DNA of 64,000 nt from Lactobacillus huangpiensis (lineage in GTDB: Bacteria; Bacillota; Bacilli; Lactobacillales; Lactobacillaceae). The notes below the pieces were generated by a model. The model was not told the origin of the DNA. It searched no databases and was given only the letters and a program-made list of their open reading frames with translations. The DNA lies in contig NZ_BPPA01000001.1 in the NCBI RefSeq assembly GCF_019972815.1, positions 310,001-374,000 on the forward strand, in the 5' to 3' direction. The position numbers were made by a program, and so were the translations under genes. Below are positions 44,359 to 54,503 of the stretch, piece after piece (the first letter of the stretch is position 1; each line of letters begins with the position of its first letter).

Positions 44359-44676
44359 TTAATCAGTGAAAATTTCTTTTGCCAAATCAAAAGCAGACCA
44401 AGCCTTCGGCCAGCCGCAATAAAATGCCAAATGAGTAATCAGTTCGACCATTTCGTCTTTCGTAATGCCGTTCTTTTTTCCAATAATCATATGTGATTTA
44501 AGTTGAGGAAAAGCTCCTTGTGCCATTAATGCGGCACAAGTAATTAAACTACGGTCACGTGCAGACAACTTGTCCTCTCTTGACCAGACTTCACCAAATA
44601 AAACATCATCATTCAATTCTGCAAACTTAGGTGCAAAATCACCTAAATTATCTCTACCGGCTGTTTGCTTTTTCAT
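44359..44676 (-). CDS. carboxymuconolactone decarboxylase family protein
   Basis: A 105-residue all-helical protein of the CMD family (RSLITCAALMAQGAFPQLKSHMIIGKKNGITKDEMVELITHLAFYCGWP). It lacks the CxxC of the AhpD subgroup; a single Cys is in LITCAALM. Such stand-alone CMD proteins accompany cupins and oxidoreductases in stress-inducible operons and probably detoxify reactive small molecules; the reaction here is unknown. It starts three bases after the cupin gene stop, so the two are coupled. Confidence 0.85.
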   Translation of the reverse strand: MKKQTAGRDNLGDFAPKFAELNDDVLFGEVWSREDKLSARDRSLITCAALMAQGAFPQLKSHMIIGKKNGITKDEMVELITHLAFYCGWPKAWSAFDLAKEIFTD

Positions 44677-44679
44677 TTT

Positions 44680-45093
44680 TTAATCCTCCAATTTTTCATA
44701 TTCTTCATCTGTGACTGGCTCCAGCCATTTTGGTGTTCCCGCAGTGATAGCAATATGCGCAAACCAACTATTTTTGGTAGCACCATGCCAGTGCTTAACA
44801 CCATCGTGAACAACTACTACATCTCCCGGATGTAATTTACGTGCAATCTTTCCTTCTTCTTGATACCAGCCTTCGCCAGCTGTAGCTAATAAAATTTGAA
44901 AGCCGCCCATATGTTGGTGCCAGTTGTTACGACAACCCGGTTCAAAACTAACGTTTGAGACGCTTACGTTAATCTTAGGATCATTGACCAAGCTTTGCAG
45001 GTAACTCTGGCCAATAAAATATTTTTGATAAGCAGTATTCTTTTCACCCAAAGCAAAAATACCATTTTGCACATCATCTTTGTGATCGTCCAT
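44680..45093 (-). CDS. cupin domain protein
   Basis: A 137-residue single cupin barrel. The first motif, GCRNNWHQHMGGFQILLATAGEGWYQEEG, keeps two metal-binding His, and the second, PGDVVVVHDGVKHWHGAT, adds more His. In many bacteria a cupin of this type is fused or paired with a CMD protein, as here. GGAG precedes the ATG. It is the first gene of the pair, behind a MerR-type promoter. A metal-dependent isomerase or oxygenase-like role is possible but unproven. Confidence 0.87.
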   Translation of the reverse strand: MDDHKDDVQNGIFALGEKNTAYQKYFIGQSYLQSLVNDPKINVSVSNVSFEPGCRNNWHQHMGGFQILLATAGEGWYQEEGKIARKLHPGDVVVVHDGVKHWHGATKNSWFAHIAITAGTPKWLEPVTDEEYEKLED

Positions 45094-45293: not shown

Positions 45294-47096
45294 ATGATTT
45301 ATCATAAAAACTTTGAATGGGATGCAAATTATGATGTTGTTGTCTTAGGCTTTGGTGGTGCTGGTGCTACTGCAGCACGGTTTGCAGCTGACCATGATGC
45401 TAAAGTACTGCTGGTTGATTCGGCTCCAGAGGGTCATGAAGGCGGTAATACTCGTTATTCAGCTCAATTAATTGGTTCTGGCGATGACTTTAATGAAATG
45501 AAAAAGTATTATCAAAAACTAACGGCGCCAATGGAACTTGACGAAGACATGATCGATACCTACGTTGAGGGGATGGTTAATACACCGCAATATGTTTCCC
45601 AGTATTTAGGAGTCAAACCTAACAGTGCTAAAGAATATGCGCCAGATAAAAGTTATGCTTTCAGAGAATTTCCTGAGTTTGAGGGTTCAGAGTCTTATGA
45701 CTTTACCACTGTCACTAAACATTGGTTTGACGCTTCTTTATGGCAAATTTTGAAGGAGCAGGTAGTTAAGCGGCAAGACCAAATAGATGTTTTATATGAC
45801 ACACCTGCTGTAGAACTAATTCAGGATCCAGAAAGTAAAAAGATCTACGGTGTGGTCATTAAACGCGACGGCAAACTATTAAAAGTGCAAGCCAAGAATG
45901 GTGTCGTCATGACGACTGGTGGGTTTGAAAACAATCAAAGAATGATTGAAGACTTTATCGGGGCAAAAAGACTGGCACCGTTAGGTACCCTTTACAACAA
46001 AGGTGATGGTCTGAGAATGGCTCAGGAAGTTGGCGCTGACTTTTGGCATTTGCACAACTTTGAGTCTTTGGGTTTGCTTCATGGCATGGCTTTTGCAGTT
46101 CCAGCGGGCCAGCGTGGTCGTTTAATGTTGGGAGCTCAAAATGAAGCTGTTTCTACCGGTAGTGTTTTTGTTATAGGTGATGATGGTACCAGATACTTTA
46201 ATGAAGCAGAAGAAAATCGTCACGGTCACATCAAGAATCACGGCCAATGGAAAATACCACTAAACCAAGAACACCCATACTTGATTTTTGATGAAACCAA
46301 AAAGCATGAATTAGATAATGATAAAATTATTGGCGATTACAAGCCGTACACAGAAAATGTTATCAAGGCTGACTCTGTTTCAGAATTAGCCGATAAAATT
46401 GGGGTTGAACCGGCAGTTTTGTCTGATACTCTCAATCGTTTTAATAAAGCATGTCAGGAACAAGACGATCCCGAATTTAGAAGAGATCCAGCTACTTTGC
46501 GTGAGTTTGACGGTAATACAATTTATGCCGTCAAATTGGAGCAGACAATGCTTAACACTCAAGGTGGTCCAAGAAGAAATAAAAATGCGGAAATTTTGGA
46601 TACCAGAGGCAAAGCTATCCCTAATCTTTATTCAGCTGGTGAACTTGGCGGTATCTGTGCTAACCAATACCAAGGCGGCAATAACTTGGCAGAATGTTTG
46701 ATTTGGGGCAAGATTGCTGGAGAAAATGCGGCTAAACCAAAGGTTGATGAAGCAACCGATGCAGCAAGCGGTGCTACTATGCATGAAAAGCATTTAACTT
46801 CAGATCTTAAACATGAAACCTATGAAACGGAAGAGAACCAATACATTGGTAAATCTACTAAAGGCATGGGTGATGAAATAGTTGTACGGGTAACTGTTGA
46901 TGAGCAAAAGAACCTAAAGAATATTGAAGTTTTGAAACAAGCTGAGTCGGATGACTATGGTTTGAAAGCCATTAAGACTCTGCCTTCTAAGATGGTTCAG
47001 GAAAATACTGTTGATGTTGATGCAGTCAGTGGTGCTTCGAGTTCATCACGTGGTCTCAAAGACGCAGTTAGGGATGCGCTAAGTAAGATAAAATAG
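45294..47096 (+). CDS. FAD-dependent reductase with C-terminal FMN-binding domain
   Basis: A 600-residue cytosolic flavoprotein of the fumarate reductase/FAD_binding_2 superfamily. The dinucleotide motif is LGFGGAGATAA (residues 19-29). The FMN_bind domain (about 515-600) has the ApbE-type site DAVSGAS with acceptor S582; a second such motif, DAASGAT, is at 489-495 in the linker. The capping domain keeps an Arg after RYFNEAEENR, but where fumarate reductases have HTMGG it reads LNTQGG, and the later catalytic Arg (ANRLGG) is Gln in ANQYQGG. So the substrate is probably not fumarate; an unsaturated carboxylate is plausible. GAGGAG precedes ATG 45294. Followed by a terminator and the LysR gene. 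Confidence 0.85.
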   Translation: MIYHKNFEWDANYDVVVLGFGGAGATAARFAADHDAKVLLVDSAPEGHEGGNTRYSAQLIGSGDDFNEMKKYYQKLTAPMELDEDMIDTYVEGMVNTPQYVSQYLGVKPNSAKEYAPDKSYAFREFPEFEGSESYDFTTVTKHWFDASLWQILKEQVVKRQDQIDVLYDTPAVELIQDPESKKIYGVVIKRDGKLLKVQAKNGVVMTTGGFENNQRMIEDFIGAKRLAPLGTLYNKGDGLRMAQEVGADFWHLHNFESLGLLHGMAFAVPAGQRGRLMLGAQNEAVSTGSVFVIGDDGTRYFNEAEENRHGHIKNHGQWKIPLNQEHPYLIFDETKKHELDNDKIIGDYKPYTENVIKADSVSELADKIGVEPAVLSDTLNRFNKACQEQDDPEFRRDPATLREFDGNTIYAVKLEQTMLNTQGGPRRNKNAEILDTRGKAIPNLYSAGELGGICANQYQGGNNLAECLIWGKIAGENAAKPKVDEATDAASGATMHEKHLTSDLKHETYETEENQYIGKSTKGMGDEIVVRVTVDEQKNLKNIEVLKQAESDDYGLKAIKTLPSKMVQENTVDVDAVSGASSSSRGLKDAVRDALSKIK

Positions 47097-47106
47097 TAGG
47101 TATTGT

Positions 47107-47140
47107 TAAAAAGGGTCATTAATATTAAATGGCCCTTTTG
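47107..47140 (+). terminator. terminator of the first flavoprotein gene
   Basis: AAAAGGGTCATT pairs with AATGGCCCTTTT (one mismatch). Confidence 0.7.
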
Positions 47141-47244
47141 TATAGTTCAAAACAGTAACTAATAGGACAGTCTTTTTTAAGTATGTTAATTTTTAGTATA
47201 ATATACACAGGAAGAAAATTTTGCTAATTTGATGAGGTAATAAA

Positions 47245-48156
47245 ATGAATTTCACTCAATTACGCTGTTTTATTAAGGCCATAGATAATTCCAGTTTTAC
47301 TATCGCCGCAGAGCGCTTAAATTTTTCCCAGTCGGCAGTTTCTAAAAATATTAAGGATCTCGAGGACACTCTGGGAGTAACTTTAATCAATCGTGCTCAT
47401 CACCGTATTTCCTTAACAAGCGCTGGCAAGTATTTCTATCGTGTTGCTCGCAATGTGGTAGATGATATGGATTACACGGTAGCATACTTGCAAAGCAAAA
47501 AGAATGACCCTGAAACACTTTTAAGAATAGGAGTCTGCGATACACCATTTGAACAAAAAATTCTGCCAATTTTTTTACGAAGACTGCGTGAATCTGGAAG
47601 TAACTTGAATATCCAGTTTGTCTTTGTACTCAATAATTCTATTGGTGAACTTCTCAACCATCACGTTGATTTATGTGCAATTGCACGAGAAGATGTTGAT
47701 GTTGTTGAAGATATTCACTTTGAACCAATGGTTCAGGGTAAAGTGGTTGCTGCTTGTCCGAAAGGTTCTCCTTTAGCAGAAAAATCTAAAATTTCTATTT
47801 CAGATTTAATTGATCGTGACGTATTTTTGCTTGATCCTAACAGTACTTTAAACGTGCAGTTGAATTTTCAAACCGCTTTAATCAATAAATTAGGTATGGA
47901 ACATATCAAATTTGTGCAAGATTTCTTGGCCATGGATATTTATGTTAGAGGTGGCTGGGGTTATGGCATTTTGCCTAACTTTATTGCGGATTATCAATCA
48001 GAGGGAATCAAGTATATTCCCATTGATTATCATGATATTTCACCATATGGAATTGCATACATGGAAAGCTTTACTAACGACTCTGTACTTGAAAAAGTGG
48101 CCAGTACATTGAAAAAAGCAATAAACGAATATTTATCTGAGGATAAAAATAAGTAA
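47245..48156 (+). CDS. LysR family transcriptional regulator
   Basis: A 303-residue regulator. The N-terminal winged helix is typical: MNFTQLRCFIKAIDNSSFTIAAERLNFSQSAVSKNIKDLEDTLGVTLINR. A substrate-binding domain fills residues 90-300. It lies between flavoprotein genes, all on the same strand, and is the likely activator of the cluster; in L. plantarum a LysR protein (HcrR) governs a similar flavoprotein set for hydroxycinnamate reduction. A TATAAT box is at 47197 and the gene has its own terminator. Confidence 0.92.
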   Translation: MNFTQLRCFIKAIDNSSFTIAAERLNFSQSAVSKNIKDLEDTLGVTLINRAHHRISLTSAGKYFYRVARNVVDDMDYTVAYLQSKKNDPETLLRIGVCDTPFEQKILPIFLRRLRESGSNLNIQFVFVLNNSIGELLNHHVDLCAIAREDVDVVEDIHFEPMVQGKVVAACPKGSPLAEKSKISISDLIDRDVFLLDPNSTLNVQLNFQTALINKLGMEHIKFVQDFLAMDIYVRGGWGYGILPNFIADYQSEGIKYIPIDYHDISPYGIAYMESFTNDSVLEKVASTLKKAINEYLSEDKNK

Positions 48157-48180
48157 TGCACAAATAAAATTTGTTTTTGG

Positions 48181-48226
48181 AATGCTTGTAATCAGCATGT
48201 AAACGTTGATATTACAAGCATTTTTT
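48181..48226 (+). terminator. terminator of the LysR gene
   Basis: AATGCTTGTAAT pairs perfectly with ATTACAAGCATT and is followed by T6. Confidence 0.85.
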
Positions 48227-48318
48227 ATTTTGGCTTTTTAAACTGTTATGTTCTGTATTCCATTTAGTAATTCTTAATTCTAAAAATGGTGCATTAATTC
48301 ACTTGATTCATAGTATTA

Positions 48319-48332
48319 TGAAAACGGTTAAA
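48319..48332 (+). promoter_or_regulatory. cre-like site before the second flavoprotein gene
   Basis: TGAAAACGGTTAAA, one base off the cre consensus, about 30 bases upstream of ATG 48362; the same element in nearly the same place as before ATG 45294. Confidence 0.45.
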
Positions 48333-48361
48333 GGATTTGTTTAAAGAAGTGAGGTATAAAA

Positions 48362-49846
48362 ATGGAAAATACTTATGATGTCATTATTGCAGGTGCAAGC
48401 AATTCTGGCGCTATGGCAGCTTGTGCTGCTGCTGAAAAGGGAGCAAAAGTTCTCCTGATTGATAAGCAAGGAAGTTCAAGATTTTTATTCCGTTCATTCT
48501 TTGCTGCGCTGGACAGTAACGCCCAAAGAAGAGCAGGAATTAAAGTTGATAAAGCTAAACTAATGAACTTTTTAACCTTGTTCTTCCAAGATAATGTTGA
48601 TGAACGTTTATTGTGGACTTGGGCAAATCATGCAGATGAAACTGCCAATTGGCTTGAAGATAATATTTTGAAACCAAATGGTGGCGTTTTGAGACCACAA
48701 AAGGATGCCCACTATGAAACTGTTGTTAATACAGCTTTCAATACTGAGTTAGCAATTGCAACACCTGATAATGGCTGGGCTCATTATGGCGATTGGGTAA
48801 TTGATAAAGTTAAAGAATTAGGAGTAACCCTTAAATACAACACTAGATTAGAAGAATTAGTGACAGATGATAGTGGTGCAGTTACTGGTGTAATTACTAG
48901 TGATCGCGGAAGTGGCGAAAAGATTGAATATAAAGCTAATAAGGGTGTCATCATTTGTACTGGTGGTTACGGTGCCAATGTTGAATTAATGAAGAAATGG
49001 GATCCACTTGGCTACAAGAAGAATGTTTATTCCGATGGACCTCGTGATGATGGTTCAGGTATTCTTGCTGGTCTTAAAGTCGGAGCCGCTCGCGATGAAG
49101 AACCAGCTGAAATCATTTTTGACCGTGGTGCAGTTCCTGTTGGCACTAAGGCTGAAGACCATTATGTCATTGACTTTAAAGATCCAGGCTACTTCTGGAT
49201 GGGTGCTTATCCACTACTAAAAGTTAACTTAAAAGGTGAGCGTTTCGGCAACGAAAGTGTTCCTTACCAATTTGATATTAATGCGATGGCTAAGCAACCA
49301 GGCTACCTGGAAGCACAGATTTGGTCAGAAGATACTATGGATCACTTGGCACAATTTGATACTCAAGGTTGCTCTCGTTTAGGCTGGCCTGGTATTTACA
49401 ATACTGAGGAAAACAAAGAAGAAATTCAACGCAGAATTGACGACGGCCTAGTTAAGAAAGCAGATACGATTGAAGAATTAGCTGAAAAATTGAACCTGCC
49501 AAAGGATACATTAGTTGCAACTGTAAAACGTTATAACGAGATGTGCGCACAAGGCAAGGATACAGACTTTGGTAAAGAAAAGTTCAGATTATTCCCAGTA
49601 GATAAAGCACCATATTATGGCGTCATCATGGGCGGACGCTTACTTGCTACTCTGGATGGATTACGGATCAATACTAAGATGGAAGTCATTGACAAGAATG
49701 GTGATCCAATTCCTCACCTTTATGCAGCCGGTAATGCCAGTGGTGGTTTCTTCTGGGGCAGTTATCCAGATAGAATTCCTGGCCTTACTTGCAGTCACGC
49801 CCAGACCTTTGGTCGTTTAGCCGGACAATATGCTGCTGAAAATTAG
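48362..49846 (+). CDS. FAD-binding flavoprotein of the fumarate reductase superfamily (no FMN domain)
   Basis: A 494-residue FAD_binding_2 protein. The N-terminal phosphate-binding loop is unusual: AGASNSGAMAA in place of G-x-G-x-x-G. The acidic strand end (VLLIDKQG) and C-terminal HLYAAGNASG are normal. The fumarate reductase residues are missing: after GERFGNES there is no Arg, HTMGG is replaced by LLATLDG, and the second Arg is not found; instead WGSYPDRIPGLTCSHAQTFGRLAG ends the protein. It is therefore likely a dehydrogenase or reductase for another substrate. It heads an operon with an MFS carrier and a further flavoprotein. Confidence 0.82.
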   Translation: MENTYDVIIAGASNSGAMAACAAAEKGAKVLLIDKQGSSRFLFRSFFAALDSNAQRRAGIKVDKAKLMNFLTLFFQDNVDERLLWTWANHADETANWLEDNILKPNGGVLRPQKDAHYETVVNTAFNTELAIATPDNGWAHYGDWVIDKVKELGVTLKYNTRLEELVTDDSGAVTGVITSDRGSGEKIEYKANKGVIICTGGYGANVELMKKWDPLGYKKNVYSDGPRDDGSGILAGLKVGAARDEEPAEIIFDRGAVPVGTKAEDHYVIDFKDPGYFWMGAYPLLKVNLKGERFGNESVPYQFDINAMAKQPGYLEAQIWSEDTMDHLAQFDTQGCSRLGWPGIYNTEENKEEIQRRIDDGLVKKADTIEELAEKLNLPKDTLVATVKRYNEMCAQGKDTDFGKEKFRLFPVDKAPYYGVIMGGRLLATLDGLRINTKMEVIDKNGDPIPHLYAAGNASGGFFWGSYPDRIPGLTCSHAQTFGRLAGQYAAEN

Positions 49847-49876
49847 TTTTTATCATAAAAGGAGTTTTTATATATC

Positions 49877-51097
49877 ATGGATGAAAAACAGTTACCTAAG
49901 CTTTCAAATTATAGGTGGGTAATCTTAGCAATAGCTGCTTTGCTTGACGCAATTAGTAGTTACATTCAATTTCAGATTTCTGCTTTAGCTGTCCAAATTA
50001 TGCCAGAACTGCATATTTCACCAGCACAATTTCAAGGTTTATTAATGGCACCAATGCTCGTTGCAGTTTTCTTAAGTATTCCTGCCGGCTCTCTTGCTGA
50101 TAAGTTTGGAGCTAAGAAAATCGTTTCTTTCGGTTTGGTTATCTCAGTACTAGGTGCATACGGTCGCCTTTTTGCTAAAAACTTCGTCACAATGTTTTTA
50201 ACCCTATTACTTTTCGGAGTTTATATGGCTTTGTTAAATGCTAATACTCTGAAAATCTTTGGTACCTGGTTTAAACAAGATACTAATACAGCTATGGGTG
50301 TCTTCTTTGCTTCTGCTAGCGTTGGAATTATGCTTTCCCAAGCTACCAGTTCTTTGTTCCCGACTGTTGAAAAGGCATATATCTTTTCATCAACTGTACT
50401 ATTGGTTTTAGCTATTTGCTGGATGATCTTTGTTAAAGACACTCCTAAGGGTGAAGAGGTTCCACAACCCCAAACAGGACAAGGCAAATCTGAGTCAACA
50501 TTTGAATACTTTAAGGCTGCTGCTAAAAGTAAGAAAACTTGGTACGTAGCTTTAGCCGTTGGTTTTGGTATGGGTGCTAGTGAAGCCTTTTCCGGCATTT
50601 TGCCGCAAGCATTTGCTGCCAGGGGAATGACTCCTGCTGCTGCTGGTGTGGTTGCTTCTGTTGCTACTATTGGTAGTTTAGCGGGTTCACTCTTTGGCCC
50701 AGCAATTATTAATAAGGCCAAAAAGGCAAAACCAATGATGATTGTTATTACTGCTCTTGGTGGTTTGTTAATGGCCATCACTTGGTATATTCCATTAGGA
50801 ATGCCATTAAGCATTGCACTAATCCTTGGCGGCGTATTTGGCGCTATGACTGGTCCTATTATGCAGGCTATGCCAATTACATTCCCAGAGATCGGTCCTA
50901 AGAACGCTGGTAGTGCTGGTGGACTTGTTGGTACAGTATCACTGCTATTATCATTCTTCCTTCCAGTTATCATTTCCTCAATTGCCGGTAAGAACTATGC
51001 ATTAACCTTTGTTATTCAAGGTCTTGTATTTGTAGTGCAAATTATCGTACTGGCAGTTTTACCAGACGCAAACGCTGCTCGTCGTCATGCTGAATAA
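49877..51097 (+). CDS. MFS transporter (NarK/CynX-like)
   Basis: A 406-residue carrier with 12 membrane segments; the loop after segment 2 reads GSLADKFGAKKIVSFG (motif A). It resembles nitrate/nitrite/cyanate-type and organic-anion MFS members. It lies between two flavoprotein genes (30 bases after one and 29 before the other), so it likely imports their substrate or exports their product. GGAG lies upstream. Confidence 0.87.
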   Translation: MDEKQLPKLSNYRWVILAIAALLDAISSYIQFQISALAVQIMPELHISPAQFQGLLMAPMLVAVFLSIPAGSLADKFGAKKIVSFGLVISVLGAYGRLFAKNFVTMFLTLLLFGVYMALLNANTLKIFGTWFKQDTNTAMGVFFASASVGIMLSQATSSLFPTVEKAYIFSSTVLLVLAICWMIFVKDTPKGEEVPQPQTGQGKSESTFEYFKAAAKSKKTWYVALAVGFGMGASEAFSGILPQAFAARGMTPAAAGVVASVATIGSLAGSLFGPAIINKAKKAKPMMIVITALGGLLMAITWYIPLGMPLSIALILGGVFGAMTGPIMQAMPITFPEIGPKNAGSAGGLVGTVSLLLSFFLPVIISSIAGKNYALTFVIQGLVFVVQIIVLAVLPDANAARRHAE

Positions 51098-51126
51098 GAT
51101 TTTTTAAAGTGAAAGGGGTCATTTAT

Positions 51127-52992
51127 ATGACAAAAAAAATAACCGAGAATCCAGGAAAGTATACCGGTTCTGGTCAAGGTAAGGAAAGTCAAATCAACCT
51201 TGAAGTCGAAGTTGACTCAGACAAGATAGTAAATGTTAAACCGTTAGATAAATATACTCCCGACAGTTTGGCTGATAACGCATTTAAGAAAATGGCGCAA
51301 AAAATTGTGGATCAGCAATCAGTCGATGTTGATGTCGTTTCTGGTGCTTCTGAAACTTCACACGGTATTATTGAAGGCGTTAAAGAGGCTCTGAACAAGG
51401 CAGGAGTTGACTTTGATGCCCTTAAAGAAAATGGTGGTCAAACTGCTGGCAAGAAGGAAGAAACTATTGACGTTGATGTTGCAGTAGTTGGTGCCGGTGG
51501 TGCTGGTGTGGCAGCTGCTTTAGCAGCTCGTCAACATGGTGCAAGTGTAGCTTTGTTTGAAAAAACTATTTCCCCACTTGGTGCAACTACTTTTGCTGGT
51601 GGTATGTTTGCCAGTGACAGTCAACAACAAAAAGATCAAAATGCGGTTGTCTCTAAGAAGTGGCTCTATGACGAATACATGGATGCTTCTCAAGGCTACA
51701 TGAACTCAATTCTTGTGCGCCGCATTATTGATGAAGCAGGTAAGACGGTTGACTGGTTAAATGAAAACGGCGCAATCATGAAATTGGTTGATGCTGGTAC
51801 AGGTGGCAGTTATGACCATATTGGCATGCCAGCTACTCTTCATGGTTATCAAGAAGGCGGTACTAAGGCCGTAACCAAACTAATTGAAAAATTCAAGTCA
51901 ATCGGTGGCAATATGTACTTTGGTTTTGCCGGTAAAAAGTTGCTGCAAGACAGTGAAGGTAAAGTTACTGGTTTAATTGCCGAAAGCGATGAAAAAACTC
52001 TTCACGTTAATGCTAAGAAAGTTGTCATTGCAACTGGTGGCTTTGGTGGCAGTCCTGAAATGCGCAAAAAGTATCTTGGCGATGTCAGCACACAAGGTCA
52101 AGTTTTGCAAAACACCGGTGATGGCTTGAACATGGCATGGGATGCAGGTACTGCTCACCATATTAATGGTTCTACTCATTACTTCTGGCAAACTTTTAGT
52201 GATAAAGATATTGGCGAAATGGCTAAAATTGTCGGTCCAAACTGGATGCCTGTCAATGCTTTAGCTGATTTTCCTAACTTGCGTGTTAACAATCGTGGTC
52301 AACGTTATGCCAGTGAAACTCATGCACTAGATTTCGCTGTTCATGGTGCAGAATTGTCAGAACAACCACAACAAACTGAGTTTGTTGTCTTTGACCAGGC
52401 AATGCTGGATAAGATTAAAGAAGGCGGAACTGTCGCAATTGAAGATCACTATGGCAAGTGGAAGAACCATCATCAGTTTTACATGGAATTTAATTTCCCA
52501 ACGGATACTGATGAAAATATCAAGCACGAACACGAAAAGACCGACTTTACTTCATTATTGAATAAACTTGCTTCAACCAATGTTATTTTTGTTGCTGACA
52601 CCATAGAAGAATTAGCTGAAAAGATGGGTGTTGACAAAGATAATTTGGCCAAATCAGTTGAGCAATACAATAACGCTAAGAAGAAAGGCGAAGATGATTT
52701 GTTCTTCTCTGATACTAAGAGAATGATTCCAGTAGAGCAGGGTCCATTTTACGCTGTGAAATTCATCGCTCGTAACTTGGGCACTCTTGGTGGTGCAACC
52801 ATTGATGAAAAAATGCATGCTTTAGCTCCAAATGGTGAACCAGTACCAAACCTTTACGTAGCTGGTGCTGATGCATCAGGAATGTATGGTAAGGCATACG
52901 TTGATTTTGAAGGTGGTACTTTAGGCTTTGCATATATTTCTGGTAGACTTGCTGGAATCGATGCGGCTGAAACTGCCAAAGCAGGTAAGTAG
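51127..52992 (+). CDS. flavoprotein with N-terminal FMN-binding and C-terminal FAD domains
   Basis: A 621-residue protein whose domain order is the reverse of the 45294 protein: an FMN_bind domain at about 1-90 with ApbE-type motif DVVSGAS (69-75, acceptor S75), a short linker, then the FAD domain opening with VAVVGAGGAGVAAALAARQ. The Arg of the fumarate reductase cap is absent (QRYASETHALDF), HTMGG is NLGTLGG, and the last Arg is replaced within YGKAYVDFEGG. ATG 51127 follows AAAGGGG. It is in one operon with the MFS carrier. It probably reduces an unsaturated organic acid or related acceptor with NADH-derived electrons passed through bound FMN. Confidence 0.85.
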   Translation: MTKKITENPGKYTGSGQGKESQINLEVEVDSDKIVNVKPLDKYTPDSLADNAFKKMAQKIVDQQSVDVDVVSGASETSHGIIEGVKEALNKAGVDFDALKENGGQTAGKKEETIDVDVAVVGAGGAGVAAALAARQHGASVALFEKTISPLGATTFAGGMFASDSQQQKDQNAVVSKKWLYDEYMDASQGYMNSILVRRIIDEAGKTVDWLNENGAIMKLVDAGTGGSYDHIGMPATLHGYQEGGTKAVTKLIEKFKSIGGNMYFGFAGKKLLQDSEGKVTGLIAESDEKTLHVNAKKVVIATGGFGGSPEMRKKYLGDVSTQGQVLQNTGDGLNMAWDAGTAHHINGSTHYFWQTFSDKDIGEMAKIVGPNWMPVNALADFPNLRVNNRGQRYASETHALDFAVHGAELSEQPQQTEFVVFDQAMLDKIKEGGTVAIEDHYGKWKNHHQFYMEFNFPTDTDENIKHEHEKTDFTSLLNKLASTNVIFVADTIEELAEKMGVDKDNLAKSVEQYNNAKKKGEDDLFFSDTKRMIPVEQGPFYAVKFIARNLGTLGGATIDEKMHALAPNGEPVPNLYVAGADASGMYGKAYVDFEGGTLGFAYISGRLAGIDAAETAKAGK

Positions 52993-53000
52993 ATTATGGC

Positions 53001-53042
53001 AAAAATCATGTATGAATTAACTGATTTATACATGATTTTTTA
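53001..53042 (+). terminator. terminator between flavoprotein genes
   Basis: AAAAATCATGTAT pairs with ATACATGATTTTT and is followed by T. It lies only 16 bases before the next gene, so that gene may depend on partial read-through. Confidence 0.75.
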
Positions 53043-53057
53043 CTAGAGGAATAAACT

Positions 53058-54503
53058 ATGACGCAAGAAAAATATGATGTAGTAATTGTAGGAGCAGGAC
53101 TTGCAGGCTTTGCTGCTGCAGATGAAGCTGTTGATAATAATTTGAAAGCCTTGCTGGTTGAAAAAGGTAAAACAACAGGCGGTACTGGTAATTATGTTGA
53201 AGGAGTTTTTGCTGCTGATTCCGAAATGCAAAAAAAAGACAATGCAACTCTTGATAAGGATGATTTGCTCAAAGAAGAGTTAACTTATTCGCACTACAAA
53301 GCAGACGGCAAGATGTGGCAAAAATACATTGCCAATGCCGGCAAAAATGTTTCCTGGCTCGAAGATCATGGTGCTGAAATTGAAATGGTAGCTAATCTAG
53401 GTTCTGGTGCTAGAACTTGGCACTTGTTTAAAGGCAAGGGTCATGATGCCATTCACAACGGCTTGGAACCATATGCTAAGAAAAAAGGCATTACCATAGC
53501 TACCTTAACTAGAGTGACTGACTTAAAGCAAAATTCTGATCACACTTTTGATGTAACACTAACTAATGTAGTTGAAAAAGTTACTAAAGTAGTTACTGCC
53601 AAAAATGTTGTGCTTGCTACCGGTGGTTATTTAAATGACCAAAAACTATTAGAAAGTACGCCTCACCAAAATCCAGACAATATTATTCCAGTTAACTCTG
53701 GTAAAAACACTGGGGATGGTTTGAGACTTGCTTGGGAATTAGGTGCTAAGAAGTACTTTACTGGAATGGCAATGATGTTTGGCGGTCAGCTGAAAGATAA
53801 GACAGTCCCATCATTTAAATTGTGGGGTACTGCTATCTGGAGTTCTGTTTGTGATCAACCGCAAATGTGGGTTAACGAACTGGGCGAGCGCTTTGTCGAC
53901 GAAAGTGCAGCTGTGGTCAACTGGGCTAATGAAGGCAATTCAATGAACCGTCAAGACCGCGTCTTCTGCATCTTTAGCCAAAAGATCTTGGATGACTTTA
54001 CTGACAAGTCTTATCCAAGATCCATGAAGCCATTTGTTCCAGAAGACAGATACCCAACTTTGCGTGATGATATTGCCAAAGCTGAAAAAGAAGGTCGCGA
54101 ATACCTGCATAAAGCTGCAACGCTGGAAGAATTAGCTCAAGAAATTGATACTCCCAACTTAGTGGCATACGTCAAGCATTATAATGAAATGGCAGCAAAT
54201 GGTGAAGATACTGATTTTCATAAACCGGCCAAATACATGTTGCCAATTGATGGAGACGGCCCATTCTATGCTATCGAATTAGGTGTAGGTGCATACACTA
54301 CAGGTGACGGACTACGCGTAAACACCAATAACGAAGTTTTGAATACAAAGGGCAGACCTATTGCAGGTTTGTATGCTATTGGTGGCGATGGCTCTGCAGT
54401 TCTTTATGGTGACACTTACGGTGTTAATATTCCAGGAACACATGCAGGGTATTGCATCTTTTCAGGACGTAATGCAATCAAAGCAATTGCAGCTCAGAAG
54501 TAA
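53058..54503 (+). CDS. FAD-binding flavoprotein of the fumarate reductase superfamily (no FMN domain)
   Basis: A 481-residue protein opening with VVIVGAGLAGFAAADEAV, a normal FAD loop. It aligns in layout with the 51127 FAD domain. The catalytic Arg, the HTMGG His and the second Arg of fumarate reductases are again absent (ERFVDESAAVVNWANE, AYTTGDGLRVN, LYGDTYGVNIPG). GAGGAA lies upstream. It is the fourth flavoprotein of the cluster and ends at a shared terminator. No FMN domain, so electrons must come from another protein or directly from a nicotinamide cofactor. Confidence 0.82.
   Translation: MTQEKYDVVIVGAGLAGFAAADEAVDNNLKALLVEKGKTTGGTGNYVEGVFAADSEMQKKDNATLDKDDLLKEELTYSHYKADGKMWQKYIANAGKNVSWLEDHGAEIEMVANLGSGARTWHLFKGKGHDAIHNGLEPYAKKKGITIATLTRVTDLKQNSDHTFDVTLTNVVEKVTKVVTAKNVVLATGGYLNDQKLLESTPHQNPDNIIPVNSGKNTGDGLRLAWELGAKKYFTGMAMMFGGQLKDKTVPSFKLWGTAIWSSVCDQPQMWVNELGERFVDESAAVVNWANEGNSMNRQDRVFCIFSQKILDDFTDKSYPRSMKPFVPEDRYPTLRDDIAKAEKEGREYLHKAATLEELAQEIDTPNLVAYVKHYNEMAANGEDTDFHKPAKYMLPIDGDGPFYAIELGVGAYTTGDGLRVNTNNEVLNTKGRPIAGLYAIGGDGSAVLYGDTYGVNIPGTHAGYCIFSGRNAIKAIAAQK

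Follow-up and report, generated by a model that had tools for sequence, protein, structure and literature searches.

The stretch of DNA analysed here, called the window below, comprises 64,000 nucleotides of the 1.90 Mb genome of Lactobacillus huangpiensis (contig NZ_BPPA01000001.1, positions 310,001 to 374,000), and our subject is a cluster of four flavoprotein genes, a regulator and a carrier at positions 45294..54503 of it. All six genes lie on the forward strand: F1 (45294..47096, 600 residues), with a FAD_binding_2 domain and a C-terminal FMN_bind domain; a LysR-type regulator (47245..48156, 303 residues); F2 (48362..49846, 494 residues), with FAD_binding_2 only; a carrier of the major facilitator superfamily (MFS) (MFS_1; 49877..51097, 406 residues); F3 (51127..52992, 621 residues), with an N-terminal FMN_bind domain ahead of FAD_binding_2; and F4 (53058..54503, 481 residues), again with FAD_binding_2 only. 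Pfam matched FAD_binding_2 in all four (E 1e-35 to 7e-46), and coordinates and domains together bear out the gene content given for this interval in a preliminary description of the same DNA. A recent tandem duplication of F1-F4 was considered and rejected, given identities of 24-31% (five pairs measured, F1-F2 not among them) and separate clades. The MFS carrier is presumed to serve uptake or exchange of a substrate or product; 14 NCBIfam models were listed for it, none reaching its cut-off.

Conservation and regulatory elements

Searching F4 against contigs from one genome per species returned 13 loci (L002-L014), all from Lactobacillus: seven belong to L. laiwuensis, L. kullabergensis, L. 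kimbladii, L. helsingborgensis, L. melliventris, L. apis and L. bombicola, and the other six to Lactobacillus sp. strains or metagenome bins. The nearest F4 homologue, at 99%, is from Lactobacillus strain W8174. The gene order LysR-F2-MFS-F3-F4 is intact in all 13; these loci were fetched by F4, and the count therefore means that F4 was not seen there without the other four genes. The same five genes are also present in another genome of the genus (G098). L. apis, L. helsingborgensis, L. melliventris and L. kullabergensis are described as honey-bee 'Firm-5' lactobacilli (PMC8456714), and from this kinship we infer that the window's genome is bee-derived; a limited literature search found no paper linking the cluster to bee lactobacilli.

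Three elements lie between the LysR gene and F2, all on the forward strand. A terminator-like hairpin with a T tail (48172..48235; -18.8 kcal/mol, z -4.31) stands 3' of the LysR gene; none of 200 shuffles was equally stable, and the consensus scan did not list it. It is followed by a conserved LysR-type (T-N11-A) box, ATTCCATTTAGTAAT (48257..48271), which is exact in 12 of the 13 loci, L006 having one mismatch in the alignment, and which is the single exact site in the window, where matches with two mismatches occur at chance level. Closer to F2, an inverted repeat of the form TTCAT-N6-ATGAA, TTCATAGTATTATGAA (48307..48322), sits in a partly conserved block. Because the downstream intergenic gaps are 30 (F2-MFS), 29 (MFS-F3) and 65 bases (F3-F4), and because the run is preceded by the LysR gene, the hairpin and the box, the sequence suggests that F2-MFS-F3-F4 form one transcription unit.

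Family placement

Against the NCBIfam model of the vinylphenol reductase VprA (NF053717, cut-off 600 bits), F4 scored 612.5, F3 243.4 and F2 209.6. In a tree of 49 rows, from which one very long paralogue (L038) was left out and the other rows thinned, F2, F3 and VprA form one clade (96/93) with F4 nested within VprA (100/100), and F1 groups with F1-type proteins of other lactobacilli (100/100). Seven proteins of the latter kind (L133, L135, L136 and L139-L142; chosen among FMN_bind matches, mostly as long frames) are 46-55% identical to F1. Most are fused to a flavin reductase domain: an N-terminal FMN_red domain was found in L133, L136 and L141 among the five scanned with Pfam, and L140 and L142, compared by BLAST only, match the FMN_red proteins of the window's genome at 39-43% over most of their length, so that the domain lies in the same chain in five of the seven (three by Pfam, two by BLAST). 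L139 matched these FMN_red proteins weakly by BLAST (24%). The genes lp_0055 and lp_0952 of Lactiplantibacillus plantarum are reported as par1 homologues, and par1 as a gene needed for hydroxycinnamic acid reduction (PMC10295242); L133 and L135 may be lp_0055 and lp_0952, going by their neighbours and place, and by the same reasoning the F1 family may be 'Par1-like'.

The preliminary description had likened the layout to the hydroxycinnamate reductase (HcrAB) locus of L. plantarum. This was a sensible lead with the wrong comparison gene: in two fetched HcrAB-like loci (L143 and L146; LysR, FMN_red and a fused FMN_red-FMN_bind-FAD_binding_2 protein, in which HcrB was recognised by the layout), the fused proteins group not with F1-F4 but with a paralogue elsewhere in the window's genome (L039; 62 and 65% identity).

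Active-site residues

We aligned F1-F4 and their relatives (9 of F1, 14 of F2, 15 assigned to F3, one of them just 30% alike, and 33 of F4/VprA type) with Shewanella Fcc3 and with UrdA, and give the positions of His504, Arg402 and Arg544 in Fcc3 numbering. The His of the HTMGG motif, which the preliminary description had reported missing from all four, is indeed replaced in each (His504; N, A, G and T in F1, F2, F3 and F4) and in all aligned relatives, F2 reading ATLDG at this position. The Arg402 column contains N, Y, L and V in the same order, and the cap Arg is thus missing from F2, F3 and F4, also as had been stated; in F1 an Arg (EENRHGH) lies one residue past Arg402 and is conserved in all 22 F1-type rows (the window, nine orthologues, five paralogues and seven from other genera), the motifs of F1 being NTQGG, NQYQGG and RHGH.

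The third residue depends in part on the alignment. In the family alignment the Arg544 column is Tyr in F1-F4 and relatives, an assignment that hinges on the placing of a short insert. No Arg occurs in the surrounding stretch of F1, F3 or F4, and for these three the claimed loss of the last Arg stands. F2 is another matter, since its Arg471 (SYPDRIPG) falls at Arg544 in the pairwise alignment with UrdA, whereas the family alignment places Tyr468 there and makes PDR an insert. Because Arg471 is possibly at Arg544 and GSYPDR[IV]PG, Arg471 included, is kept in all 15 F2 rows, F2 may still hold a carboxylate. The Arg402/His504/Arg544 set of Fcc3 is therefore not found in F1-F4 as such, with Arg544 of F2 alignment-dependent. 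In UrdA, Arg411, Arg560 and His520 are reported to contact the substrate carboxylate (PMC10882135), and F3 and F4 would seem not to be built to hold a carboxylate in the Fcc3 way.

The alignment method can detect catalytic residues, as is evident from the paralogue L036, which keeps Gln363, His365, Glu378, Arg381, Arg402 and Arg544. This protein scores 618.0 bits with a fumarate-reductase model (cut-off 542) and is likely the true fumarate reductase of the genome. Classical fumarate reductase identity was rejected for F1-F4 on their residues, which, together with this separate candidate, supports the earlier suspicion that 'fumarate reductase' labels on them are probably wrong. The gene for L036 lies between a fumarase gene and one of the malate/lactate-dehydrogenase family (L036:4828-8772, reverse strand), and its product has Tyr at the His504 position.

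The Tyr of the Arg544 column, at the place where fumarate reductase binds the carboxylate of its substrate, is followed by a Gly five or six residues on; the pair is invariant among F1-F4 and relatives (24/24 and 23/23 aligned rows), being Tyr591/Gly596 in F3 and Tyr454/Gly460 in F4. In the C-terminal piece of F3 this Tyr aligns with that of RFYPGPGVP in 3-ketosteroid dehydrogenase (Tyr487 of KSTD1), so that a pair of Tyr487/Gly491 type is assigned directly in F3 and through the family alignment in F1, F2 and F4. Among the KSTD1 residues Y487, P490, G491, V492 and P493, Tyr487 and Gly491 are reported to effect the keto-enol change of the substrate (PMC5348764). A phenol or carbonyl oxygen (as in substrates of vinylphenol, stilbene or enone type) would fit such a pair better than an acid would. 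The substrate cannot be read from the Tyr by itself, because F1-type proteins share it and may act on phenolic acids.

Flavinylation motifs and proposed electron supply

F1 and F3 combine FMN_bind domains with the flavinylation motif D-x-x-[ST]-G-A-[ST] (PMC12052999) in a genome that encodes ApbE, as expected of ApbE substrates. The motif of F3, DVVSGAS (51331..51351, forward strand; residues 69-75), lies within its FMN_bind domain (residues 18-90). F1 has two motifs on the same strand: DAVSGAS (47019..47039; residues 576-582) inside FMN_bind (residues 524-597), and DAASGAT (46758..46778; residues 489-495) in the linker outside it. The linker motif conforms in 10 of 10 F1 rows (the window and nine orthologues). 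Its majority fraction is 0.91, against 0.80 in the 11 residues before, 0.84 in the 28 after and 0.90 in the FAD domain, and four of its seven columns are invariant against 4/11 before and 8/28 after; it is thus just modestly more conserved than its surroundings, and its weight lies in the fact that every change stays within the motif. F2 and F4 have neither FMN_bind nor the motif and therefore need another electron donor.

The single ApbE of the genome has no signal peptide (by eye) and is encoded in a run of genes that also includes one of a phosphatase family and two for FMN_red proteins; a third FMN_red match, elsewhere in the genome, is partial. There is a precedent in Klebsiella, where a soluble reductase is served by an ApbE of the cytosol (PMC12052999). 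That no HcrA-like partner is visible, as the preliminary description pointed out, is true locally, but the pair beside the only ApbE gene was overlooked, as were the mostly FMN_red-fused F1 relatives; on both grounds the missing partner probably acts in trans. The window's genome and G098 each have 14 matches to FMN_bind (counted as matches rather than proteins, partial ones included), more than any other of the 301 Lactobacillaceae genomes searched (the next has 11; at least one match in 143 of the 301). In the 13 genomes from which the F4 loci come, the number ranges from 5 to 15 per genome.

Proposed function and its alternatives

On the best reading of these data, F3, F4 and perhaps F2 would reduce neutral phenolic alkenes and F1 may reduce phenolic acids, with NAD+ regenerated in the process. 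Several lines of evidence point this way: F4 exceeds the VprA cut-off and lies inside the VprA clade, to which F2 and F3 are adjacent; the five-gene set, the LysR box and the Tyr/Gly pair are conserved to the extent given above; FMN_bind domains with motifs in F1 and F3 coincide with one ApbE near two FMN_red genes; and five of the seven F1-type proteins from other lactobacilli carry an FMN_red domain. In full, the proposal is that bee-gut-type lactobacilli have in this locus an inducible module for reducing phenolics in the cytoplasm, and we judge it evenly balanced between right and wrong. Of the earlier ideas on this DNA, a LysR-controlled redox sink for plant-type unsaturated compounds fits best; the interpretation built around it was half right, the FMN_bind domains, the ApbE half of the system and the VprA match of F4 having gone unnoticed.

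We envisage that a pollen phenolic would enter through the MFS carrier and be sensed by LysR, and that the FAD of F3 and F4, perhaps also of F2, would reduce its carbon-carbon double bond; F2, in which the Arg is kept, and F1, which is of another family, may accept acids. Electrons would pass from NADH to the FMN_red pair, on to the ApbE-attached FMN of F1 and F3, then to FAD and the substrate, with F2 and F4 supplied by the FMN of F3, by the FMN_red pair or by free FMNH2. The benefit would be NAD+ regenerated without spending pyruvate. In favour of this role, bee microbiota are reported to use coumaroyl and caffeoyl phenolamides, and Firm-5 bacteria to deplete flavonoids (PMC5726620).

Comparison with characterized systems marks the cluster, as far as gene content and residues can tell, as a new variant of known reductase loci. 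VprA reduces vinylphenols to ethylphenols and is controlled by VprR. In L. plantarum the two are encoded by lp_3124-lp_3125, with vprR adjoining vprA (PMC10295242). The present locus likewise has a LysR gene and, in F4, a FAD_binding_2 protein without FMN_bind that passes the VprA model, but three genes separate the two and F4 belongs to an operon-like run with two more reductases and an MFS carrier. With HcrAB it has in common a LysR-controlled flavoenzyme locus and, presumably, an NADH-fed flavin relay. The HcrB-like proteins differ in being fused FMN_red-FMN_bind-FAD_binding_2 chains (two scanned) that keep Arg402, His504 and Arg544 (three of three aligned, L039 among them); Pfam found no FMN_red (PF03358) in any of F1-F4. 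F1 shares the NTQGG, Tyr and RHG motifs with its FMN_red-FAD_binding_2-FMN_bind relatives, but like L135 it lacks their N-terminal FMN_red domain, and it has the extra linker motif, which one of the seven (L139) also has. UrdA and Fcc3 are of the same family, and UrdA too has an FMN domain feeding FAD, but the catalytic set separates them from F1-F4.

Several observations weigh against a phenolic-reduction module. The VprA score of F4 is the lowest of 12 family proteins scored (the others reach 620.5-833.2), and the same genome contains a better VprA candidate, L043, at 636.5 bits with a divergent LysR gene alongside. The join of F2 with F3 in the tree was flagged as a possible long-branch artefact, and Pfam, with the threshold applied, detected no FMN_red domain in L135 or L139. 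A phenolic acid decarboxylase was not found in the genome, and vinylphenols would therefore have to come from outside. The constancy of Arg471 in F2 both weakens this reading and strengthens its nearest rival.

That rival holds that the four proteins reduce several unsaturated acids such as urocanate, acrylate and hydroxycinnamates, as the preliminary description had proposed, and we consider it possible, though with a likelihood well short of even. Their superfamily includes unsaturated-acid reductases, the F1 family may contain Par1 (by our linking of the family to the account in PMC10295242), and F1 and F2 each have a fully conserved Arg near one of the catalytic positions. The residues that in UrdA contact the carboxylate are largely gone, however: all four lack His504, F1, F3 and F4 lack Arg544, the cap column is without Arg in F2, F3 and F4, and the HcrB-like protein that has all three lies elsewhere in the genome. 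F3 and F4 lack Arg544 as well as His504 and group with vinylphenol reductase, an enzyme type with neutral substrates, and for these two the reduction of acids is accordingly doubtful; F2 may retain the necessary Arg.

More doubtful still is a flavonoid-degradation module, in which C-ring or chalcone double bonds of pollen flavonoids would be reduced. Bees with Firm-5 bacteria and cultures of these are reported to deplete flavonoids and to accumulate putative ring-breakdown ions (PMC5726620), and F3 and F4 appear from their active sites to be suited to neutral phenolics, but in vitro use is reported to differ among four species (PMC8456714), each of which has the module in one record. Least probable, and in our view very unlikely, is a steroid, sterol or cyclic-enone pathway in which F2-F4 would act like 3-ketosteroid delta1-dehydrogenase (KSTD) on pollen sterols or cyclic enones: the pair equivalent to Tyr487 and Gly491 is present and the best PDB matches of the F3 C-terminal piece are 3-ketosteroid dehydrogenases (52.2 bits, with Fcc3 at 51.6), but overall similarity to these is low, F2, F3 and F4 all score with VprA above any KSTD model listed, and no known steroid gene was seen among the nine cluster and neighbour proteins scanned.

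Variants and neighbouring genes

A complete F1 adjoins LysR in nine of the 13 loci. L003 and L004 show just its C-terminal end, at the edge of the locus, and it is absent beside LysR in L012 and L013. After this F1 end, the first 4.2 kb of L003 and L004 contain another short remnant of the F1 C-terminus and a further LysR-MFS pair, and L013 has an additional LysR-F2-MFS copy beside the cluster (L013:262-4200); the LysR/MFS(/F2) module thus seems to duplicate as a unit. In the window, F1 has as its divergent neighbour a cupin gene (44680..45093, reverse strand), adjoined by a gene for a carboxymuconolactone-decarboxylase-family protein (44359..44676, reverse strand), which might have a link to the reductases. 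These two and an asparaginase gene lie beside F1 in all nine loci with a complete F1, the cupin and carboxymuconolactone-decarboxylase-like pair in either orientation.

Of 397 Lactobacillaceae genomes, eight have a relative of F3 at E <= 1e-70, the genome of the window counted: four in the genus of the window (g1; 79-100% identity) and four in a second genus (g38; 56-58%). At 1e-90, among 398 genomes of the phylum, a relative was found in the window's own genome only. The four g38 homologues (L058:8746-10668 and like ones in L059-L061) all have a lipoprotein-like signal (such as LLLSVAGCGNG) at the N-terminus, and a neighbouring gene is of AraC type in the two scanned; no signal peptide was seen in F3 of the window (both by eye). 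Because of this difference F3 may have changed membrane side, leaving surface and cytoplasmic versions of one reductase.

Elsewhere in the genome, genes for a type I 3-dehydroquinase, a shikimate dehydrogenase, a flavoprotein reductase and an MFS carrier lie side by side (L038:3703-8443, reverse strand), and the reductase has FMN_bind and flavinylation motifs near both ends; this is a possible quinate/shikimate reduction locus.

Putative flavin tags on oxidases and other proteins

A scan of the whole genome's DNA for the flavinylation motif gave 37 matches, against 2 for the reversed pattern, and 29 of the 36 matches examined gave the exact motif on translation. Among these 29, 24 lie in flavoproteins, an FMN_bind remnant or PAS proteins, three in unrelated proteins and two in frames below 31 residues; the last five were taken as chance matches, the unrelated proteins having been recognised by eye as FtsH, RpoC and a phage-like ATPase. 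Half of the 24 lie outside FMN_bind domains. Four of these are in reductases, namely the linkers of F1 and of a paralogue (L037) and the C-terminal tails of L038 and L039; the others are in a pyruvate oxidase (two), a lactate-oxidase-like protein (one), a glycerol-3-phosphate oxidase (one) and two PAS_10 proteins (three and one).

The pyruvate oxidase (L042:14450-16258, forward strand; C1:118449-120257; 733.2 bits with TIGR02720, cut-off 637.85) has both motifs on a C-terminal tail. Of 61 genomes of the genus, 52 gave a match, and among the best 30 pyruvate-oxidase loci, the window's own included, at least one motif is present in 29 and two in 25, with none in L080. Solved pyruvate oxidases, which we take to be the L. 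plantarum and Aerococcus enzymes, match it only as far as residue 572 or 573, short of the tail. The lactate-oxidase-like protein, encoded about 5 kb beyond the window end on the same contig (L131:2998-4227, forward strand), scores under its model cut-off (430.9 against 645.5) and ends in DAVTGASQA; the tail motif is present in six of six loci in which the gene was found, out of eight looked at, the window's genome counted. In the type 1 glycerol-3-phosphate oxidase (L125:1116-2861, reverse strand; 881.9 bits with NF033461, cut-off 840) the one copy, DAATGAS at residue 365, lies at an insert in 2rgo, the solved alpha-glycerophosphate oxidase, where the alignment is interrupted. The PAS_10 proteins (L132:3926-4672, reverse strand, and L046:4118-4660, forward strand) carry their three and one motifs on C-terminal tails.

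Short tags of this kind have precedents: engineered seven-residue flavin tags are reported to work best at protein ends (PMC12052999), natural tags on FMN_red C-terminal tails to be flavinylated (PMC11334425), and an N-terminal tag to be required for the activity of a trypanosomatid fumarate reductase (PMC8065229). The terms 'pyruvate oxidase' and 'lactate oxidase' have 0 mentions in the main texts of PMC8238504, PMC11334425 and PMC12052999, the extent of the literature searched on this point.

The presence of ApbE motifs on oxidases suggests a native flavin-tag electron network. In its boldest form, which we rate as unlikely, short ApbE tags would be a native general plug, with FMN held on flexible tails, linkers and loops of pyruvate, lactate and glycerol-3-phosphate oxidases, PAS proteins and reductases such as F1, and the oxidases would hand electrons through this tethered FMN to FMN_bind reductases under anaerobic conditions. 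NADH would be bypassed, and a 'flavin wire' in the cytoplasm would lead from pyruvate or lactate to pollen phenolics, with the cluster among its outlets. A general rule for the pyruvate-oxidase tail would be weakened by five genomes with a second copy of the enzyme, in which the match ends at residue 582 or 585, before the end of the tail.

For the cluster itself, these results correct a likely 'fumarate reductase' mislabel and, if the phenolic-reduction reading is right, would connect a group of bee-gut symbionts with plant-phenolic reduction. Of all these results, the flavin-tag pattern most deserves to be tested. In lactobacilli, the oxidases of pyruvate, lactate and glycerophosphate are usually viewed as oxygen-only makers of peroxide; were the oxidase tags real, this view would need revision, and the use of electron acceptors in these fermenters would become directly testable.

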